From: Tetracentron sinense
Taxonomy: Eukaryota; Streptophyta; Magnoliopsida; Trochodendrales; Trochodendraceae
Reading direction: 5' to 3'
Length of the DNA stretch: 64,000 nt
Assembly: GCA_015143295.1 (NCBI GenBank)
Contig: CM026553.1
Location: 2,418,001 to 2,482,000 of the forward strand
Both the position numbers and the translations under genes were made by a program. The notes beneath the pieces are model-generated. The model ran no database searches, was not told where the DNA came from, and saw only the letters and a program-made list of their open reading frames with translations. Below, one piece after another: positions 161-63,683 of the stretch; within the stretch, counting starts at the first letter, position 1, and each line of letters opens with the position of its first letter.

Positions 161-1015
161 TGTGTGCTGAGTCCGAAATTAAGGGTTTTAAACCTTTGGC
201 TTCTAAGTGAAACACATTTGGGGTTTCTTAGACCTAGAGGAGAGAAAGGAGAAAGAGAAATCCAAGAGGGGTGTTGGATTTGGGATAAAGGGAGCTCAAG
301 CTTGAAGATTTTCAAGCTTGGATCATGCCCTATCAAGCAAGATCTTCCTCCTCAAGGGTTGCTTCTCTATCAAGTTGAGGGTTTTCCAAACCAAGGGTTT
401 CCTCCAAGATCAAGCTTTGATACTAAGGTTAGTACACCCTACTAACTCCCTTGATAATAACCTAGATTTCCTTATGAATAGAGTGTATTGATCTCCCCTA
501 TTTTCCCTTTTCTTGTTGTAATGCCTTAACTTCTCCAAAAATGAATAAGATAATAAATGGTGTGGGATGTGTGAATGGATGAAGGGTGAGGCGATTGGAT
601 GCCCTATGGATGTGATGCGTTGTGTGTGATGAAAAATGGTGGAAGGGCATTTGATGCATAATGAATACACCCCATGTGTTTGATGAAATGTATGCACTAA
701 TTACTTGAATAGAATGACTATGAATGTGTTGCACAGTATGTGTTCGATGAAATGCATGAATGGCAATTTAAATGAATTTAATGAAAATTATGAAAGCATA
801 AGTCGAGTGATTCTTCCTAAATGGTAAAAATGATTTAAAGCTTCCATCTTACTCGCATTGTCACATGATTATAAGAAGGATTGAAATGTTTTGTGTTTTC
901 CCTTTCGATCACTCATGTCATCACCATTTCCACAAATGCTACACACACACACATGCATGAATCAACCAGATTTTTCTAAAGTATAAGTATATGAAATGTG
1001 ACTTACGATACGAAT

Positions 1016-1821: not shown

Positions 1822-1962
1822 ATGACGGGAGGTCCAGAGGGTACCTTCGACCCCGAGCCTTGGGTTAAAGAGGAATATGTGGAGGAGAGAGAGCCGTCTA
1901 TCCTGATGCAGACGCAGGTGGATAGAGATCTAGATGTGTGGCCGTATCTAGATTACTGTTAA
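1822..1962 (+). CDS. LTR-encoded small acidic protein, copy a
   Basis: This is a 46-codon frame (ATG to TAA) with no homologue that I recognise. The product is strongly acidic. It holds an EPWVKEEY block near residues 12-19, an EEREPSI block near 21-27 and the tail DRDLDVWPYLDYC. Copy i (58157-58297) encodes a protein of the same length. Of 46 codons, 14 differ only synonymously and 10 change the residue; in the last 13 codons there are 9 synonymous and no replacement changes. That pattern indicates past selection on protein sequence. The frame starts 9 bases after a conserved hairpin. In other copies the ATG sits just before a splice-acceptor-like CAG/G, so the start could be used only in unspliced RNA. 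Function is unknown. Confidence 0.55.
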   Translation: MTGGPEGTFDPEPWVKEEYVEEREPSILMQTQVDRDLDVWPYLDYC

Positions 1963-3586: not shown

Positions 3587-3736
3587 ATATCGATAGGTAC
3601 ACCATTCGATATCTGTGCTTCTAGTCCATGGATCAAGGAAGAATATGGTGAGGAGGAGCCTCATATGGAGCCTGTATTAGTGCCTCAGGTGGAGGCTAGA
3701 GACTTAGATAGTTGGCCCTATCAGGGTGACTACTGA
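3587..3736 (+). pseudogene. Acidic LTR protein frame, copy b, start codon lost
   Basis: The frame is open from an ATA-TCG-ATA-GGT start, aligned with ATG-TCG-GCA-GGT in other copies, to TGA at 3734-3736. It keeps the family blocks PWIKEEY and RDLDSWPY and ends in GDY. The initiator is ATA, so no standard start is available. The open frame and conserved blocks argue that it once encoded the same protein. Confidence 0.5.
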
Positions 3737-5272: not shown

Positions 5273-5392
5273 CTAATAGTAACCCTCTACCGGAGGTTCC
5301 TCCATAGGTTTCACAACGCATTCCTCTTCTACCCAATGGCTCGGAGTACAGAAACCATAAGGAGCAGCCGCTCCACTATCACCTGCCGACAT
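5273..5392 (-). CDS. LTR-encoded small acidic protein, copy c
   Basis: The frame has 39 codons, ATG-TCG-GCA-GGT to TAG. It keeps the MSAG start, a WVEEE block near residues 20-24, and a Glu/Pro-rich end in EGYY. It is shorter than copies a, g and i by loss of the central Q-rich part, and its C-terminal block is reduced. The hairpin at 5403-5423 lies 10 bases upstream. Whether it is ever translated is unknown. Confidence 0.45.
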   Translation of the reverse strand: MSAGDSGAAAPYGFCTPSHWVEEECVVKPMEEPPVEGYY

Positions 5393-27722: not shown

Positions 27723-27806
27723 CTAAGCATCTATCGGCTCCTCTTTGTTGTAGTCTTCCTCAACCCATTGGCTGAGATTACAGATGTCGAACTGACCTGC
27801 CGACAT
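27723..27806 (-). pseudogene. Acidic LTR protein frame, copy d, truncated by a stop
   Basis: It starts MSAGQFDIC and keeps QWVEEDY, but a TAG ends it after 27 codons. Downstream the family's C-terminal block survives in a shifted frame (DRWLYHGYY). It is a damaged copy of the frame in copies a, c, g and i. Confidence 0.5.
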
Positions 27807-34424: not shown

Positions 34425-34538
34425 TTGTCTTCAGGTTTAGGAGGAGAACCGTAGACCGAGGAGGTTTACCTTGAAGAGGGGGAGGAAGGTGAGCTTCCTG
34501 AGGAAGAGTCTAGGGATTTTGACAGTTATCCCTATTGA
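34425..34538 (+). pseudogene. Acidic LTR protein frame, copy e
   Basis: The frame is aligned from TTG-TCT-TCA-GGT (ATG lost) to TGA. An internal TAG replaces the Trp of the EPW block. It keeps a long Glu-rich core and ends RDFDSYPY. It lies 10 bases after the hairpin at 34394-34414. Confidence 0.45.
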
Positions 34539-42430: not shown

Positions 42431-42553
42431 TCATCGGCAGGTACTCGGGTCCCTTTTGATTTATGTGGCACTGAACCTTGGATAGAGGAAGAGTACTTCG
42501 ACCCGGAGCCTTCCATGGATCACTACCAGGACGATGGTCCGTTAGATAGATGA
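42431..42553 (+). pseudogene. Acidic LTR protein frame, copy f, no ATG
   Basis: The frame is open from TCA-TCG-GCA-GGT to TGA, with VPFDLCGTEPWIEEEYFD and an end in GPLDR. Its C-terminus matches copy h (QDEGALHR), not the WPY-type tail, so two protein subtypes exist. The GCAG/G junction is kept although ATG is lost. Confidence 0.45.
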
Positions 42554-43818: not shown

Positions 43819-43959
43819 TTAGCAATAGTCTTGATAGGGCCACCTATCTAGATCTCTATCCTCCTGTGGCTGCAATGGGATCGGCAGATCCCTTTCTTCC
43901 TCATACTCTTCTTCAACCAATGGCTTCGGGTTGGGGATGTCGAACTGATCTGCCGACAT
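43819..43959 (-). CDS. LTR-encoded small acidic protein, copy g
   Basis: The frame has 46 codons, ATG-TCG-GCA to TAA, the same length as copies a and i. It reads MSADQFDIPNPKPLVEEEYE at the start and DRDLDRWPYQDYC at the end. The frame is also open upstream through the hairpin to 44046. I chose the inner ATG because it aligns with copies a, c, d and i. Acidic blocks and the WPY tail are kept. No known family is recognised. Confidence 0.55.
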   Translation of the reverse strand: MSADQFDIPNPKPLVEEEYEEERDLPIPLQPQEDRDLDRWPYQDYC

Positions 43960-50547: not shown

Positions 50548-50661
50548 TCACCTATGTAGTGCCCCCTCATCCTGGTAATGAACCATGGTAGGCTCCAGCT
50601 CGTAGTATTCTTCCTCAATCTAAGGCTCCGAATCACAAACATCAAAGGGAACATGTGCACC
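50548..50661 (-). pseudogene. Acidic LTR protein frame, copy h
   Basis: From ACA-GGT (ATG lost) to TGA at 50548 it reads GAHVPFDVCDSEP, then a TAG replaces the Trp of EPW, then IEEEYYELEPTMVHYQDEGA to LHR. It is close to copy f in sequence and tail type. The same Trp codon is also a TAG in copy e. Confidence 0.45.
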
Positions 50662-56237: not shown

Positions 56238-57441
56238 CTTGCACAACATCATCTAATGCATGTGCATCCTGCACGGTCATGGTGAAAACCCATCCCTGAT
56301 TCGCATGGCGAGATGGCTGGGTAGGCAGTGGAGGCTTAGAAGCCTGTGAAGACCCCTGCTATGAAACTTGCCTAGCTGGAGGTCGAACTCCCTGTGGCCT
56401 GTCTCGTAACTGCCTCCGTGGACAATCCTTGATCATGTGGCCTTGATCACCATAGTGGAAACAACCCTCGTTAAGTCTACGACACTCTCCGGCCTTGTGC
56501 CTCTTACCACAAACATTGCACTCCTTGAATGGTGAAGATGTTGAAGATATGGGTGGCATATATCTAGTGGCCTACATGGCAATAAGGTGAGGTGCCTGTA
56601 GGGCAAAAGGAGGCCTCTAAGCCTACCTAGGCTGCAAAGTCTGATATGGAGCAGTCCTGGCCCTTTTCTCAGGCGATGTTGAGCCACTAGACTGTCCTCT
56701 GGTCATACCTCTTCATCTAAGGAAGTCCTCCGAACCCTTCTCGACGATCTTCACCTTGCTCACTATGTCTCCCCAAGTTTCCACCTAGAGCACGGTGATC
56801 CTATCCCTGATAAAGGACTTCAGCCCTCTCTTAAACTTCCTGATTCGCATGTGCTCAGATGCGATCATATGAGGTGCAAACCTCGACAACTCTGTGAATT
56901 TGGCCTCGTACTCTGCCATAGTCATCTTCCCCTGTTCGAGGGAGAAAAACTCCCACTCCTTCTGCTCCCTGATGAATACCAGGAAGTACTGCTTATAGAA
57001 GACATCCATGAACTCTCCCCATGTCCATGGCTCCCCTGCCTTGGTGACGTCCCTCTGCCTCAGTGCAGATCTTCACCAGTGCTCAGCTTCACCTTCCATC
57101 ATGAAGGAAGCCCATTCCACCCTCTGCTCATTAGTGCAGCAGAGTGCCCAAAAATTTTTCTCCAACTGCATTATCCAGGCCTCGACGACCATCGGGTCTG
57201 TCGTCGCATAGAAGCTAGGAGGACGAAGCCTCTAGAATACTTTAAGTCCTACAGTGTGATGGACTGGAGGAAACCCAGGTACAGGTGTAGGTGTAACAGT
57301 AGGCTGCCTGGCAACAAGGATAGCCATGGTCTCTACCATAGTCTCCATAACTTGTGAGATGTCGGGCTGCTCATCGCCCAATGGAGCCTCTCCTCCATTC
57401 CCCTTGGTCTGGTATCCACGACCCCTGGTATTTCGTCTCAT
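56238..57441 (-). pseudogene. Gypsy 1 gag, broken
   Basis: The start is ATG at 57441 (MRRNTRGRGYQTKGNGG). The retrotransposon gag core has VEAWIMQLEKNF (about 57190), FYKQYFLVFIREQKEWEFFS (about 56990-56940) and MTMAEYEAKFTELSRFAPHM. Two zinc knuckles follow (about 56525-56420): CNVCGKRHKAGEC is intact, while CFHYGDQGHMIKDC has Tyr for its second Cys. At least five stops interrupt it. The splice donor at 56237 ends the exon. Confidence 0.88.
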
Positions 57442-57814: not shown

Positions 57815-57832
57815 CTCAGCTCTGATACCAAG
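57815..57832 (-). other. Gypsy 1 primer-binding site
   Basis: On the minus strand TTGGTATCAGAGCTGAGG follows two to three bases after the LTR end. TGGTATCAGAGC matches initiator tRNA-Met, as for Copia A. Confidence 0.9.
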
Positions 57833-57834
57833 TT

Positions 57835-57867
57835 TGTCGCGACCCAAAATACCCCTAGGAGTTAAGG
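57835..57867 (-). mobile_element. Gypsy 1 5' LTR, first 33 bp (plus-strand sense)
   Basis: TGTCGCGACCCAAAATACCC to TTAAGG is the LTR tip next to the primer site. Gypsy element 2 starts at 57868; TAAGG (57863-57867) should be its target duplication. The rest of this LTR would lie beyond the window. Confidence 0.88.
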
Positions 57868-58156
57868 TGTCACGCCCCAAAATACCCCCTAGGAGTTAAG
57901 GGATACTTTAGGTGTGACTATACGTACCTGCCAAACCATCCTGTAATGAATAAGATAATTACAGTACTAGATAATGATAATCAGAGCGCGGAAGCTAAAC
58001 ATAAATGCGGAAGCGTAAACTAACTTTTTCTTTTCTTCTAAGATTTTCAAAATAGTATTCCAAGTTAACAATATACAAAACATGTCTAAGTCTAAGGTGG
58101 ACAGACCCACCTATCAAAATTTCAAAATACATAAAAGACCCTCTCGTACTCTCCCC

Positions 58157-58297
58157 TCAACAGTAGTCGAGGTATGGCCACACGTCAAGGTCTCGGTCCA
58201 CCTGAGACTGTAGTGGGATAGACGGCTCTCTCTCCTCGATATACTCTTCATCGACCCAAGGCTCTGGGTCGAGGGCTCCCTCAGTACCTACCGACAT
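58157..58297 (-). CDS. LTR-encoded small acidic protein, copy i
   Basis: The frame has 46 codons, ATG-TCG-GTA-GGT to TGA. It starts MSVGTEGALDPEPWVDEEY and ends DRDLDVWPYLDYC. Of all copies it is closest in protein to copy a, yet the two differ at 9 of the last 13 codons, all synonymously. Because this copy belongs to the youngest element in the window, it is the best one to test for expression. Acidic residues dominate; no signal peptide or membrane segment is visible. Confidence 0.6.
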   Translation of the reverse strand: MSVGTEGALDPEPWVDEEYIEEREPSIPLQSQVDRDLDVWPYLDYC

Positions 58298-58598
58298 GAA
58301 AGTACGGCTGAGCATGGAATACTCAGCGAGTACAAGCTACTAGCTATCCATAACAATAATAAACATGCAAGGAGTAATACAATACCAATCATCAATTCCA
58401 GGCAATAGTAAAATCATAGAATTAAACAATATTAAACATGGAGCGATATTATCATCTTGATGTGCATGAATGTAAAAATGCCGATAAATCTCATGCTTGA
58501 AAACCCCTTTCCATGTCTCGGTATGAATTGTAGAAATCATGTATGCGTGCATGCATGAATGTCTTGTCATCATCTTGTAACCTTGCATCTTGTAACTT

Positions 58599-58880
58599 GT
58601 GAGCCAGAGGCTGGCACCCGAATCCCCCCTGGGCTGCCAACCTCCTTGATATATGATTTTCTTGTGAGCCAGAGGTTAGTACCCGAATGTCCCTGGGCTA
58701 CCAACCTCCTTGACAATATGTGATTTTAATTACTTGTTTAGTTTTCTTGTGAGCCAGAGGCTAGTACCCGAATGTCCCTGGGCTACCAACCTCCTTGACA
58801 ATATGTGTTTTGGGGGTTTTCTTGTGAGCTAGAGGTTAGTACCCGAATGTCCCTGGGCTACCAACCTCCTTGACATGCAA
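58599..58880 (-). repeat. Minisatellite in LTR copy i
   Basis: Four imperfect units of 65-87 bp are built around GTGAGCCAGAGGCTAGTACC and CTGGGCTACCAACCTCCTTG, starting near 58599, 58664, 58751 and 58826. GGGCTACCAACCTCCTTGAG also occurs once in copy h near 50975. Confidence 0.88.
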
Positions 58881-59867
58881 TATTTTCTTGTTGGTTATTA
58901 TATGCATATGCTCTTGAAATCTCGGTTCATGCTATCATGCGTGCTCGTGTACTTGTCAATGGTGACAATCATGGAATAAGGATAATAAGAGAGATATGAC
59001 ATCACCATTCAATTCACAATATATGCATATGAGAATTTAAGTAATCAACATGGTATTTAAATCCATTCATCATTCATGAGAATACATGCATAAACCCCTT
59101 TCCATTTCTTCATTTAAATCATTATTTCATAGTTCAGGCATTTCGTCAAACACATCACATACATTGTTCCTTAGTAGTTCATCTCCTTATTTTAATTTCA
59201 TATTTTCCATCCAATCACACAAGGGTAAATTTGTTATTTGTACAATGCCCATCCTCCATTTCCAACTCACAACCCACACATATCATACATCACACATTCG
59301 GCATCCAATCGCCACATCCAATCTCCCATCCACACATCCATTCCATTTCCCTTATCTTGTTTATCTTTGTTGAGTTAATACAATACATAGGGAAGGAAAG
59401 CATAATATAAATAATCACCATTTACAATAGAAAACCTAGATTATTGCTAGGGAGAGTTAGTAGGGTGTACTAACCTTGAATCAAGGCTTGATCCTTGGTA
59501 GAAACCTTGATTGAAGCTCCAACTTGCAAGAAGAAAGATCCTTGCTTGAAGAAGGCTTGGTGTGGGCAAGAAACCCTTGAAGTTGCCATGGAAAACGCTA
59601 CCCTACCTTGGAGAAGGAGTCCCACATGAACTTGAGGTTGGATTTTCGAAATCCAAGCTTTTAGGGATGCTCTTGGGTGCTTAAACCCTTGATCTTACTC
59701 TCAAATGGAAAGGGGGCTTTGGAACCCTAGTTTCTTCTCCCTCTCTCTCAAATATCCCTAAGTGTAGTGAATGAGGGCTCAAAGGGTCGAGCAAGCCCTT
59801 ATGGGTAAGGGTTTAACGCCCAAAAGATGGAAAAGCCCTTACTGAAATTTCTGCAAAAACGTGAAGA

Positions 59868-60052
59868 CCGAGCGATCGGTGGTTATGACCGATCGATCGG
59901 TTGCCTGCCGAGCGATCGGTACTCTGACCGAGCGACCGGTCAAAAAACTACTCTCTGGAAAATTTCCCCATACAAAATTTTTGACCGTTCGATAGCTACC
60001 GATCGATCGGTTTTGGACCGATCGATCGCTGACTGGACCGAGCGATCGGTGC
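59868..60052 (-). promoter_or_regulatory. U3 palindrome array, LTR copy i
   Basis: At least eight ACCGAGCGATCGGT or ACCGATCGATCGGT motifs occur here, including the perfect palindrome ACCGATCGATCGGT at 59998-60011. The shared spacer TTTCCCCATACAAAATTTT interrupts the array, as in copies e and f. It starts about 210 bp into the LTR on the minus strand. Confidence 0.65.
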
Positions 60053-60262
60053 TCTGCAGGTCTGGACTGTTTTGACCATATCTTTTGACTCGCTCATCCG
60101 ATTTCGACGATTCAACTTGCGTTGGGTTCGTCTTTCGAAAATGAACATTTTTGACGTTTCAGAATTTCTGATTTCTCCCTTAATTATTAATTAGATTACG
60201 AGGAAGACCAATTAGCTACGAAAACGGTATTCATTAAGTATAGAAAAGTCCGGGGTGCTACA

Positions 60263-60275
60263 TTCTCCCCCCCTT
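60263..60275 (-). other. Gypsy 2 polypurine tract
   Basis: On the minus strand AAGGGGGGGAGAA directly precedes the 3' LTR. Confidence 0.9.
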
Positions 60276-60379
60276 ACAAAAATTTCATCCCCAAAATTTT
60301 GGACGATACATACATGCACAAGACTATAACAATTACAAGGGAATGCCCAGGCCCTAAACAAATAACTAAGGATACTTTT

Positions 60380-61700
60380 CCGAACTTCGGCTTCTCGTTC
60401 CTATGTAGCTTCCTCCCTTGAATGGTGTTGCCATCTTACCAAGACCAAGGGAATGGTCTTGTTGCGCAAGACTTGATCTCGCCTATCCAAGATCTGCACT
60501 GGTTGCTCAACTAGTGTAAGATCCTCTCGGATTTCCACTGGATCAAGCTCTATGACATGGGAAGGGTCCGGGGTGTACTTTCGAAGCATAGAGACATGGA
60601 ATACATTATGGACCGCCGCCATATGAGCGGGCAAAGCAACACGATAAGCCACCTCACCGACTCTAGTAATGATCTCGAACGGACCCACATATCTTGGGCT
60701 AAGCTTGCCCCTCTTCCCGAATCGCATAACACCCTTGGTCGGTGAAATTTTGACAAAAATAAAGTCCCAAACTCGAAACTCAAGGTCCCGCCTACGGGTG
60801 TCGGCATAGCTCTTCTGTCGGTCTTGTGCGGTCTTCAACCTCTCCCGGATGAGCTTGACTCTATCCGCCATTTGTTCAATCAACTCGGGGCCCAAAATTT
60901 TTCTTTCTCCCACTTCATCCCAATACAACGAGGATCTGCAACGTCTTCCGTACAAAGCCTCATAAGGCGCCATCTGTAAGCTTGCCTATAGCTATTATTG
61001 TAGGCAAATTCCACCAAAGGTAGGTGATCTTCCCAACTTCCTTTAAAATCCAGCATACAAGCTCGGAGCATATCTTCAATAACCTGATTCACTCGCTCGG
61101 TTTGCCCATCCGTCTGTGGATGGAAAGCTGTGCTAAAGTCCAACCGGGAACCCATGGCACACTGGAAGCTTTTCCAAAACCTGGAGGTAAATCTAGGGTC
61201 CCGATCCGAGACAATGCTCAATGGCACCCCGTGCAACCGAACTATTTCTATGATATACAATGCAACCAACTGATTGGAATTGAAGGTAGTCCGGTATGGC
61301 AAGAAATGGGCGGACTTCGTCAGTCTATCGACCACAACCCATATAGCATCGAAGTTTCTAACCGTCTTCAGCAACCCCACAATGAAGTCCATAGATATGT
61401 GCTCCCATTTCCACTCGGGAATAGGGAGAGACTGTAAAAGTCCGGCCGGTCTCCTGTGTTCAGTTTTGACTTGTTGGCACACCAAGCATTTAGACACATA
61501 CTCCGCTATTTCTCGCTTCATGTTCCGCCACCAAAAATGCTTTTTCAAGTCCCTATACATTTTGGTACCTCCGGGGTGAACTGTGTACTTGGACCGGTGA
61601 GCCTCGTATAAGATTTCTCGTTTAAGCTTCTCTTCAGCTGGGACACATACTCTTCCCTTGAAAATGATAATCCCATCATCCGTCACCGTAAAATCCTTGC
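60380..61700 (-). pseudogene. Gypsy 2 integrase with chromodomain-like tail, nearly intact
   Basis: On the minus strand the zinc site is complete ([19 protein letters not shown]). The catalytic residues are all present: Asp in MDFIVGLL, Asp in [10 protein letters not shown], Glu in [11 protein letters not shown] frameshift at about 60980 (NNSYRQAY against NNSYQAS in element 1) separates the core from the C-terminal frame 60401-60973. That frame has KRGKLSPRYVGPFEI and KTIPLVLVRWQHHSREEAT. A TAG where element 1 has Trp ends the chromodomain-like tail. Confidence 0.9.
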
Positions 61701-63683
61701 TACCACTCTTAACTGAATTGTCTCGGCAAGAAAGTAGCTCGGCATCCATTCCCTGCAACTCCTTGATCATGCTCAACATAAATGGCCTAACTGTGATGTT
61801 AGCCATTACCGGCCCAAAGGTAGGGAGACTAAAACTGATGCCGAGGTTGGACGCATCCTTTAGCAACCTCCACTCCTTCAGCATCATATACGCCAAAAGT
61901 CCAGTGGCCTTCCGGCTAAGAGCATCGGCTACAACATTCGTTTTGCCCGGGTGGTATTGAATGGAGCACTCGTAGTCTTTCAAAAATTCTACCCATCTTC
62001 TTTGCCTCAGGTTCAGCTTCTTCTGGTAAAACAAATACTTAAGGCTTTTATGATATGTGAATACCTCAAATTGTTCCCCATAAAGATAATGTTGCCAAAT
62101 CTTGAGTGCAAACACTACTGCAGCAAGCTCCAAGTCATGAGTGGGGTAATTCTTTTCATGCTCCTTCAATTGCCTTGATGCGTAGGCAATGACTTTCTTG
62201 TGCTACATGAGGACACACCCAAGTCCGATATGCGAAGCATCGCTATATACCTCATAACCACCATGTCCGGATGGCACAGTAAGGACGGGGGCCGTGGTGA
62301 GGTGCTTCTTCAACTCTTAGAAACTCACTTCACATCAGTCACTCCAACTGAACTTGGCATTTTTCCTCGTCAAGTAAGTGAGAGGTGCGGCCAAACTGGA
62401 GAATCCCTCCATAAATCTCCGGTAATAGCCTGCCAACCCGAGGAAACTACGTATCTCCATGACGCTCTTGGGCCTCTCCCAACTCATGACTGCCTCAACC
62501 TTGGCTGGGTCTACAGAAATACCCTCGGCCAACACTACGTGGCCTAGGAACGCCACTTTCTCTAACCAGAATTCACACTTGCTCAATTTGGCATATAACC
62601 TATGCTCTCTCAACATTTCTAGAGCAAGGCGGATGTCTCGTGTGTGATCTTCCCGTGTCTGGGAATACACCAAAATGTCGTCGATGAACACAATCACGCA
62701 TCGATCCAAGTATGATCGGAACACCCGGTTCATTAAATCCATGAACGCCGCCGGTGCATTCGTCAGCCCAAAAGGTATGACAAGGAACTCGTAATGCCCA
62801 TACCGAGTCCTGAAAGCCGTCTTCAGAACATCCTCCGACTTGATCTTTAATTGATGATACCCTGATCTAAGATCAATCTTGGAGAAAAATATCGCTCCCT
62901 TCAGTTGGTCGAACAAGTCGTCTATCCTTGGCAAGGGGTAACGATTCTTGATAGTTACCTTGTTCAACTGACGGTAGTCTATACACATTCTCATCGACCC
63001 GTCTTTCTTCTTCACAAAGAGAACCGGAGCTCCCCACGGTGAGACACTTGGTTGGATGAAACCAAGTTGTTGTAACTCCTTAATCTGTTTCTTTAATTCT
63101 TCAAGCTCTATAGGGGCCATTCTATATGGTGCTCTTGAAATCGGAGCTGTCCCCGGAGCAAGCTCTATAGCGAACTCGACCTCTCGGTCAGGAGGCAATC
63201 CGGGAAGTTCTTCTGGGAACACATCTAAGAACTCACTCACAACGGGAATAGCCGAAGAGTTTTGTGCTTCGGGGTTCGCCAAGCTCAAAGCTGCCAAGCG
63301 AACAATATCCCTTTCTCTCAATCCTCGGAAGTGAAAAGGTTTGACACCTTCCGGCTTGAAATTCACCATCTTTTCAAAACACGCAACATGTCCATGGTGG
63401 TTTGACAACCAATCCATCCCTAGGATGACATCAAAATCCAAGTCTTGGAAATCCAGGATGATAAGATCGGCTAACAGTTCATTCTCCCCCACTTGAACCA
63501 CACTATCCCTGAATATCTTATCCGTATCAACTAACTTGTCAAGTGGAGTTGCAATGGTCAACTCCCGCTCCAACGGAGTAGCCTCAGTCAAAAAGTCCTT
63601 TGCAAAACTTGGTGAGACAAAAGAGTGAGTAGATCCTGTGTCTATCAACACTCGAGCAAGACACTCGTTCACTAATAAAGCAC
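61700..63683 (-). pseudogene. Gypsy 2 protease, reverse transcriptase and RNase H
   Basis: The 445-codon frame (62335-63672) has protease [11 protein letters not shown] and [10 protein letters not shown]. The RT blocks [45 protein letters not shown] and the catalytic FIDDILVYS (about 62680) follow, then the RT-RNase H connection [11 protein letters not shown] and [11 protein letters not shown]. RNase H follows with [15 protein letters not shown] and [13 protein letters not shown]; its next Asp reads [10 protein letters not shown] (Tyr), and [10 protein letters not shown] is intact. Stops at about 62206 and 62318 break RNase H. Exon 2 starts at 63683 after the intron. Confidence 0.92.

Follow-up and report, generated by a model that had tools for sequence, protein, structure and literature searches.

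Codon-level conservation of an acidic microprotein frame inside Ty3/gypsy LTRs of Tetracentron sinense

LTRs are usually regarded as control DNA, although a protein gene within an LTR is carried by the mouse retrovirus MMTV, whose Sag is a larger membrane protein; the codon-selected frame that we describe here inside a plant LTR encodes, by inspection, a short acidic chain without a hydrophobic stretch. Among regulatory leader frames, conserved-peptide uORFs (CPuORFs) are, as outlined in PMC5902531, an established mechanism. Our frame resembles plant CPuORFs in being a short frame upstream of a main frame, with conserved amino acids and a weak start context, but it lies inside the LTR and thus occurs twice per element, the core common to its subfamilies is in mid-protein, and many AUGs stand before the main frame. 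In pararetrovirus leaders, where ribosomes shunt (outlined in the same source, PMC5902531), a short leader frame and many leader AUGs are likewise found in a plant reverse-transcribing element; the present case differs in that the amino acids are conserved, the inverted repeat is found upstream and the sequence beyond the stop has no unusually stable structure. We rejected a hairpin of the pararetrovirus type at that place, the 146 nt from just before the stop folding no better than shuffles (z +1.12, +0.51, +0.12 and +0.53), so that in none of the four copies does the frame end before a stable hairpin.

Genes added beyond gag-pol in Ty3/gypsy elements are known as eORFs, and those of plant LTR retrotransposons were surveyed at a minimum of 250 codons (Neumann 2019, PMC6317226); the size limit, as that survey gives it, misses a frame of 39-51 codons, which moreover differs from eORFs in lying inside the LTR. 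In grape, mass spectrometry yielded 47 non-conventional peptides from LTR-retrotransposon regions (PMC9070638), a likeness in that such regions of a plant yield peptides, although the accessible part of that report, with which we compare by description only, describes no conserved family or LTR gene. An accessory nuclear LTR-element product made from spliced RNA, as proposed here, is known for Cer1 of C. elegans (PMC12786077); it is likened by description, not by sequence, and the splicing in our case is predicted. According to the same source, a 2025 review, plant LTR elements are generally without introns, with Ogre and EVADE as exceptions.

The window analyzed here is a 64,000-nucleotide stretch of T. 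sinense (GenBank assembly GCA_015143295.1, contig CM026553.1, positions 2,418,001 to 2,482,000, forward strand). Frame i lies in it inside an LTR (Table 1), at LTR positions 1966-2106 as counted from 60262, and upstream of the primer binding site (PBS) and gag. This LTR runs on the minus strand from TGTAGCACCCC at 60262 to GCGACA at 57835 (span used in computations, 57838-60262); directly after it stands the PBS expected of an LTR retrotransposon (TGGTATCAGAGC, which we take to be of the tRNA-Met type), and the minus-strand domains adjoining it have the Ty3/gypsy order of protease, RT, RNase H and integrase. Ten other LTRs align to LTR i, beginning at base 1-3 and ending near base 2395, LTR i being longer through a duplicated end: its last ~33 bases are tandemly duplicated (57835-57884), leaving two LTR-end motifs 33 bases apart. 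Because the 3' end of another pol precedes LTR i, the LTR lies between two internal regions; across 57819-63672, the pol 3' end of one element stands before it and the PBS and gag of another after it, with one LTR common to both. The assignment to Tekay-type elements made in an earlier note on this DNA is plausible, and no chromodomain was found at E up to 10 in one integrase piece (60404-60973), which ends 57 residues past the SH3 domain.

Table 1. Features of the window relevant to the LTR frame (a slash marks the exon end at a predicted donor)
Feature	Position	Strand	Remarks
Frame i, acidic microprotein	58157..58297	-	46 codons + stop; 52 if in-frame ATG 18 nt upstream is the start
Frame a	1822..1962	+	intact, 46 codons
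Frame b	3587..3736	+	without ATG; b-type; relatives with ATG elsewhere in genome
Frame c	5273..5392	-	intact, 39 codons
Frame d	27723..27806	-	ATG present, stop after 27 residues
Frame e	34425..34538	+	decayed: without ATG, in-frame stop
Frame f	42431..42553	+	without ATG
Frame g	43819..43959	-	intact, 46 codons
Frame h	50548..50661	-	decayed: without ATG, in-frame stop
LTR i (TGTAGCACCCC ... GTCGCGACA)	57835..60262	-	2,428 bases; terminal motifs and PBS
ATG-poor stretch, predicted leader exon 1	59475..59971	-	ends at predicted donor AAG/GTTAGT, last exon base 59475
Conserved inverted-repeat block GTAC..GCTGAGTATTCCATGCTCAGC.GTAC	58302..58333	-	32 bases, directly upstream of ATG
Second predicted donor CAG/GTACGT	57928..57930	-	last exon base 57928; predicted end of frame-bearing exon
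Primer binding site TGGTATCAGAGC	57819..57830	-	4 nt past LTR end
Predicted gag start MRRNTRGRG	57439..57441	-	389 nt past PBS start
SH3_Tf2-1	60404-60973	-	domain match
RNase H, H2C2, weak rve	60883-62169	-	domain matches
RVP_2 and RVT_1	62338-63672	-	domain matches
Stretch upstream of frame a	396..617	+	73% alignment to LTR i donor region; keeps AAG/GTTAGTACACC, last exon base 427

Consistent with the earlier note, translation recovered all nine frames listed there (five on the minus strand), with a, c, g and i intact and a, g and i of 46 codons plus stop. Its statement that every copy keeps the frame is valid only for an alignable frame, since just four of the nine are full and a full frame is absent in the other five. 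MSAG, given there as the shared start, is indeed the commonest start among fetched copies, but i itself begins with MSVG, a with MTGG and g with MSAD; similarly, the WPY-DYC tail is found in the a/g/i type and is limited to it. The codon counts reported between a and i proved exact, with 14 silent and 10 replaced codons overall and 9 silent and none replaced in the last 13 (pairwise dN 0.12, dS 1.28). The pattern is not due to chance: a replaced fraction down to the observed 0.40 (random mean 0.74) occurred in none of 2000 random redistributions of the observed substitutions, and all six pairs among a, i, g and a further copy (L7b, L007) fell below the random mean (p <0.0005 to 0.024).

The protein occurs in three alignable types, of 46 residues (a/g/i type; MSAGTEGALDPEPWVEEEYIEEREPSIPLQSQADRDLDVWPYLDYC in copy L147), 51 residues (b-type) and 39 residues (c-type), which have in common the MSAG start, a mid-protein PW(V/I)EE(E/D)Y, acidity (mean net charge -10.2, -10.4 and -9.2) and aromatics (4.5-6.8 on average). 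A DLDxWP motif is present in two types and absent from the c-type, which ends in VEGY(Y/H), while b-type tails are mostly RDLD(H/Y)WP..GDY; in the i/a type the C-terminal 13 codons are the most strongly conserved. The stop is kept but its codon varies (TGA in i, TAA in a and g, TGA in 20/20 b-type copies, TAG in 5/6 c-type copies), tails and stop codons differing across types and being mostly kept inside each type. AlphaFold2, given a 3-sequence alignment of window proteins, predicted no fold (pLDDT 63, pTM 0.13) and was otherwise uninformative. The microprotein had no match in Pfam or NCBIfam and no credible one in the Protein Data Bank (one at E 0.97), an Rfam search gave no match, and no homologue outside this genome was found in 5.8 billion proteins, a database that may not cover plant proteins. 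Among the titles and beginnings of abstracts listed by searches of the open-licence literature, none described such an LTR-encoded protein, which is weak evidence of absence.

Purifying selection acts on this frame at the codon level in three subfamilies. The first 28 loci had been picked by similarity to the frame itself, so that their high intactness proves nothing, and they were superseded by two samples selected by flank: for the c-type, the best 40 of 3,157 candidates for a 181-base stretch upstream, and for the i-type, the best 40 of 1,838 candidates for a 201-base upstream stretch, the window's own copy included. Being the 40 best-scored, these are young copies, and the low diversity of the upstream flank arises because that stretch was the search key. 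In the c-type sample no copy had a stop and 38/40 were without a missing frame base (deletions being counted, not insertions); diversity at the three codon positions was 0.005, 0.011 and 0.054, and piN/piS was 0.17 in the frame as compared to 4.84 and 1.58 for the remaining two sense frames. The antisense frames gave 3.45, 1.92 and 0.22, the last of these having its third positions in common with the microprotein frame, and nine control frames neighboring the c-type frame scattered from 0.16 to 5.20, so single ratios based on few changes are noisy. In the i-type sample 28/40 copies were intact and 12/40 were not, diversity by codon position was 0.050, 0.050 and 0.111, with 0.133 in the downstream flank, and piN/piS was 0.27 in the frame versus 0.91 and 0.88 in the other sense frames. 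The same arginine codon (codon 35) had become a stop in five of these 40 copies (L144, L150, L170, L176 and L177), possibly through repeated CpG loss.

A codon maximum-likelihood model (MGK+F3X4, with omega = 1 fits taken as the best over a kappa range) gave an omega of 0.254 for the a/i/g type (44 sequences, 4/40 fetched sequences having been dropped; lnL -1345.4 versus -1395.4 at omega 1, a drop of 50.0), 0.472 for the b-type (21 sequences; -1232.1 versus -1246.1, a drop of 14.0) and 0.445 for the c-type (17 sequences; -574.1 versus -580.1, a drop of about 6.1), the values near 0.45 in the latter two being only moderate. From codon 5 on, third positions differed at 0.290 in the a-type (36/40 copies), as compared to 0.129 and 0.032 at positions 1 and 2, and from codon 5 to the end at 0.298 in the b-type (20 copies, two of which had no ATG), as compared to 0.134 and 0.114; b-type flanks differed at 0.235-0.357, and flanks outside the conserved block described below at 0.23-0.39 over both sets. 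Neither set had gaps in the frame, against 0.016-0.43 in flanks other than the conserved block, but because both were picked by protein match this absence is partly by construction, and picking by protein similarity also lowers N. The earlier note had named a dN/dS near 1 over many copies, or equal conservation at third positions, as results that would speak against coding; instead, omega and piN/piS are below 1, the low values are specific to the frame as in a protein-coding gene under purifying selection, and third positions do not share the conservation of the other two. Its coding interpretation is thus supported.

The variants in the i-type sample indicate where this selection operates. 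Those private to one copy comprised 48 N, 16 S and 3 stops, where the flank mutation spectrum predicts an N:S of 2.97, whereas those shared by at least two copies comprised 16 N, 15 S and 2 stops (Fisher p 0.035; 0.017 by codon). Private variants thus look neutral and shared ones do not, which points to selection on the transposing lineage: inserted copies decay like neutral DNA, and the lineage still transposing keeps the protein. The c-type comparisons agree but are few (11, some not both ends of one element), with 3/11 differing in the frame through residue changes or indels.

When the genome of 1.16 Gb was searched with the three protein types, a first look gave 31,042 c-type, 16,458 a-type and 22,518 b-type candidates, all unconfirmed. 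No stop interrupted 150/150 c-type, 143/150 a-type and 137/150 b-type matches among the best 150 of each candidate list; because these lists were ranked by protein similarity, they show abundance, not selection. Many c-type matches are paired about 7.5 kb apart, as expected of two LTRs of one element, and at one place (G000 C2, near 32.19-32.21 Mb) three c-type LTRs follow one another at 7.5-kb spacing.

The inverted-repeat block just before the ATG is less diverse than the flanks (151 matches at up to 5 substitutions, 40 of them distinct). The hairpin that it forms was rejected as proof: it folds, but its pairing (332/360 cells) equals that of shuffles (mean 331), and there was no covariation beyond shuffles. 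Third positions are conserved in the first four codons too (ATGTCGGCAGGT; 0.10, 0.08 and 0.00 at codons 2-4, as compared to 0.29, 0.29 and 0.18 for the rest), which means that the start coincides with a signal at the nucleotide level. A splice acceptor may be formed by ATGTCGGCAG/GT, in which event the ATG would lie inside an intron. Start contexts were weak in 15 stretches, with a pyrimidine at -3 and T at +4, and an upstream ATG precedes the start, in-frame in the i-type and out-of-frame in the c-type; which start codon the i-type uses, for 46 or 52 residues, is uncertain.

The sequence before the frame has the look of a spliced leader, from which we infer splicing. Among 11 full i-type LTRs, which had been picked for their likeness to the frame, the longest ATG-free stretch is 344-551 nt, within LTR positions 250-841, and in 8/11 it exceeds 500 nt and extends past the predicted donor; as a whole these LTRs are ATG-rich (62-73, against a Markov expectation of 47-52), and such a gap was attained by 5, 0 and 0 of 500 Markov shuffles of three LTRs. 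Copy i does have ATGs in the last part of its predicted leader exon 1. By weighted scoring, AAG/GTTAGT was the top-scoring donor of the whole LTR in 10/11 i-type LTRs, and it is kept in LTR type a, which aligns with type i over two stretches, one that starts ~65 bases ahead of the frame and reaches nearly to the LTR end (76%) and one of ~220 bases around this donor (73%; window 396-617). The second donor (CAG/GTACGT or TAG/GTACGT), 60-93 bases before the LTR end, was among the four best in 10/11. Eight c-type loci also have an ATG-free stretch there (289-447 nt), with a donor-like TTCAAG/GTC in 5/8. A gag start of the form MRR.TRG was present in 14/15 PBS-bearing stretches listed (that of L019 being later), and directly before the gag start a TTCTCAG-like sequence is found in the i-type and the c-type alike. 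From the inverted-repeat block to gag there are 17-23 AUGs including the frame's own (14 stretches, L019 being left out and two places being counted twice, the window copy as L001 and L014 as L031), so that ribosomes on unspliced RNA are unlikely to scan from the frame as far as gag.

The reading that we favor, and regard as about an even bet from the sequence, is that frame i is one of a family of 39-51-residue acidic Ty3/gypsy LTR microproteins, codon-selected and probably made from a leader exon that lies upstream of gag and is alternatively spliced, with a predicted role in trans as an accessory factor. Under such a scheme, transcription would begin upstream of the ATG-free exon 1; joining of donor AAG/GTTAGT to an acceptor just before the inverted-repeat block would make those of the microprotein exon the first AUGs of the mRNA, whereas joining it to an acceptor just before the gag AUG would remove from the gag mRNA the 17-23 AUGs that the unspliced leader contains, the frame's own among them. 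With PWVEE(E/D)Y as its contact, joined by DLDxWP in two of the subfamilies, the disordered acidic-aromatic chain might then bind a nuclear protein of the host and help the element's RNA to be expressed or exported, in the manner of an activation-domain peptide or the Cer1 nuclear protein. The strongest points against such action in trans are the weak start and the fact that the frame lies immediately before gag.

Those same two points favor the main rival, a cis-acting conserved-peptide uORF whose nascent peptide stalls or tunes leader ribosomes and thereby sets gag output or the RNA free for packaging, the free protein being inert. It would find a precedent in an established mechanism and a further argument in the concentration of conservation in the C-terminal 13 codons of the i/a type, and the DNA order fits a frame upstream of a main frame, on a transcript structure that is predicted. 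However, while C-terminal sequence is conserved within the i/a type, the ends vary between subfamilies (DYC, GDY, GYH), the c-type is without the DLDxWP tail, and what is common to all is the mid-protein PWVEE(E/D)Y, whereas arrest peptides usually keep their end. These differing C-termini and the many AUGs intervening before gag are the strongest points against a uORF, which we consider a serious but less probable explanation.

One could also envision the frame being spliced into a larger protein, either as an N-terminal extension of gag or with its start supplied by an upstream exon, as predicted donors on both sides of the frame and the resemblance of the MSAG codons to an acceptor would allow. 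This is improbable, because stops are kept at the frame end, ahead of the second donor, in three subfamilies, and because the only phase-matched upstream exon seen in i, tried as the first half of a two-exon protein (ATG at 59589), is without that ATG in most other copies and has indels in many. Still less credible is a noncoding signal (splice acceptor, RNA hairpin, integration or packaging signal) that is open by chance: the block upstream and codons 1-4 are conserved at the nucleotide level as it would predict, but from codon 5 third positions change at the flank rate and positions 1-2 more slowly, the other sense frames carry no such signal (the antisense frame that overlaps the same third positions does, at 0.22), and the hairpin pairs about as its shuffles do. 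Equally remote is capture of a host gene fragment by the element, for which we found no supporting point; neither Pfam, NCBIfam nor, credibly, the Protein Data Bank offers a match, and the matches fetched from among the best 150 of each of the three protein searches mostly have the LTR inverted-repeat flank. To our knowledge the microprotein sequence is absent from familiar element families.

A codon-selected microprotein in the LTR would imply that solo LTRs can carry a gene formerly under selection, that LTR dating and studies of LTR conservation include coding sites, and that these elements probably splice their leader; it also opens to testing the question of how a leader so rich in AUGs allows Gag to be translated. 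More speculatively, and with considerable doubt, these plant Ty3/gypsy LTRs may hold a Tat- or Rev-like regulatory gene: an acidic microprotein, encoded in a leader exon subject to alternative splicing, would act in trans on the RNA or promoter of its element. Any solo LTR, and not just a full element, could then function as a regulatory gene, and a single genome would contain candidate loci by the many thousands.

LTR positions 501-700 (59563-59762) differ at 0.27-0.28 among the 11 LTRs, which were chosen by the frame, as compared to 0.04-0.07 over positions 1301-1900, as if lineages had swapped promoter or first-exon modules. In both LTR types, the same LTR part, the predicted intron 1, holds a tandem array whose unit has an internal inverted repeat (58596-58875 on the minus strand; ~950-1200 sense in the c-type L030); the units, of 65-85 bases in i and ~53 bases in the c-type, look unrelated by eye. 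Common to the first parts of i- and c-type LTRs, again by eye, is an element of ~40 bases (CTCAAGCTCGTGTGGGAC..CTCCAAGCTAGGGCAGC; 59597-59636, and near 219-258 sense in L030).
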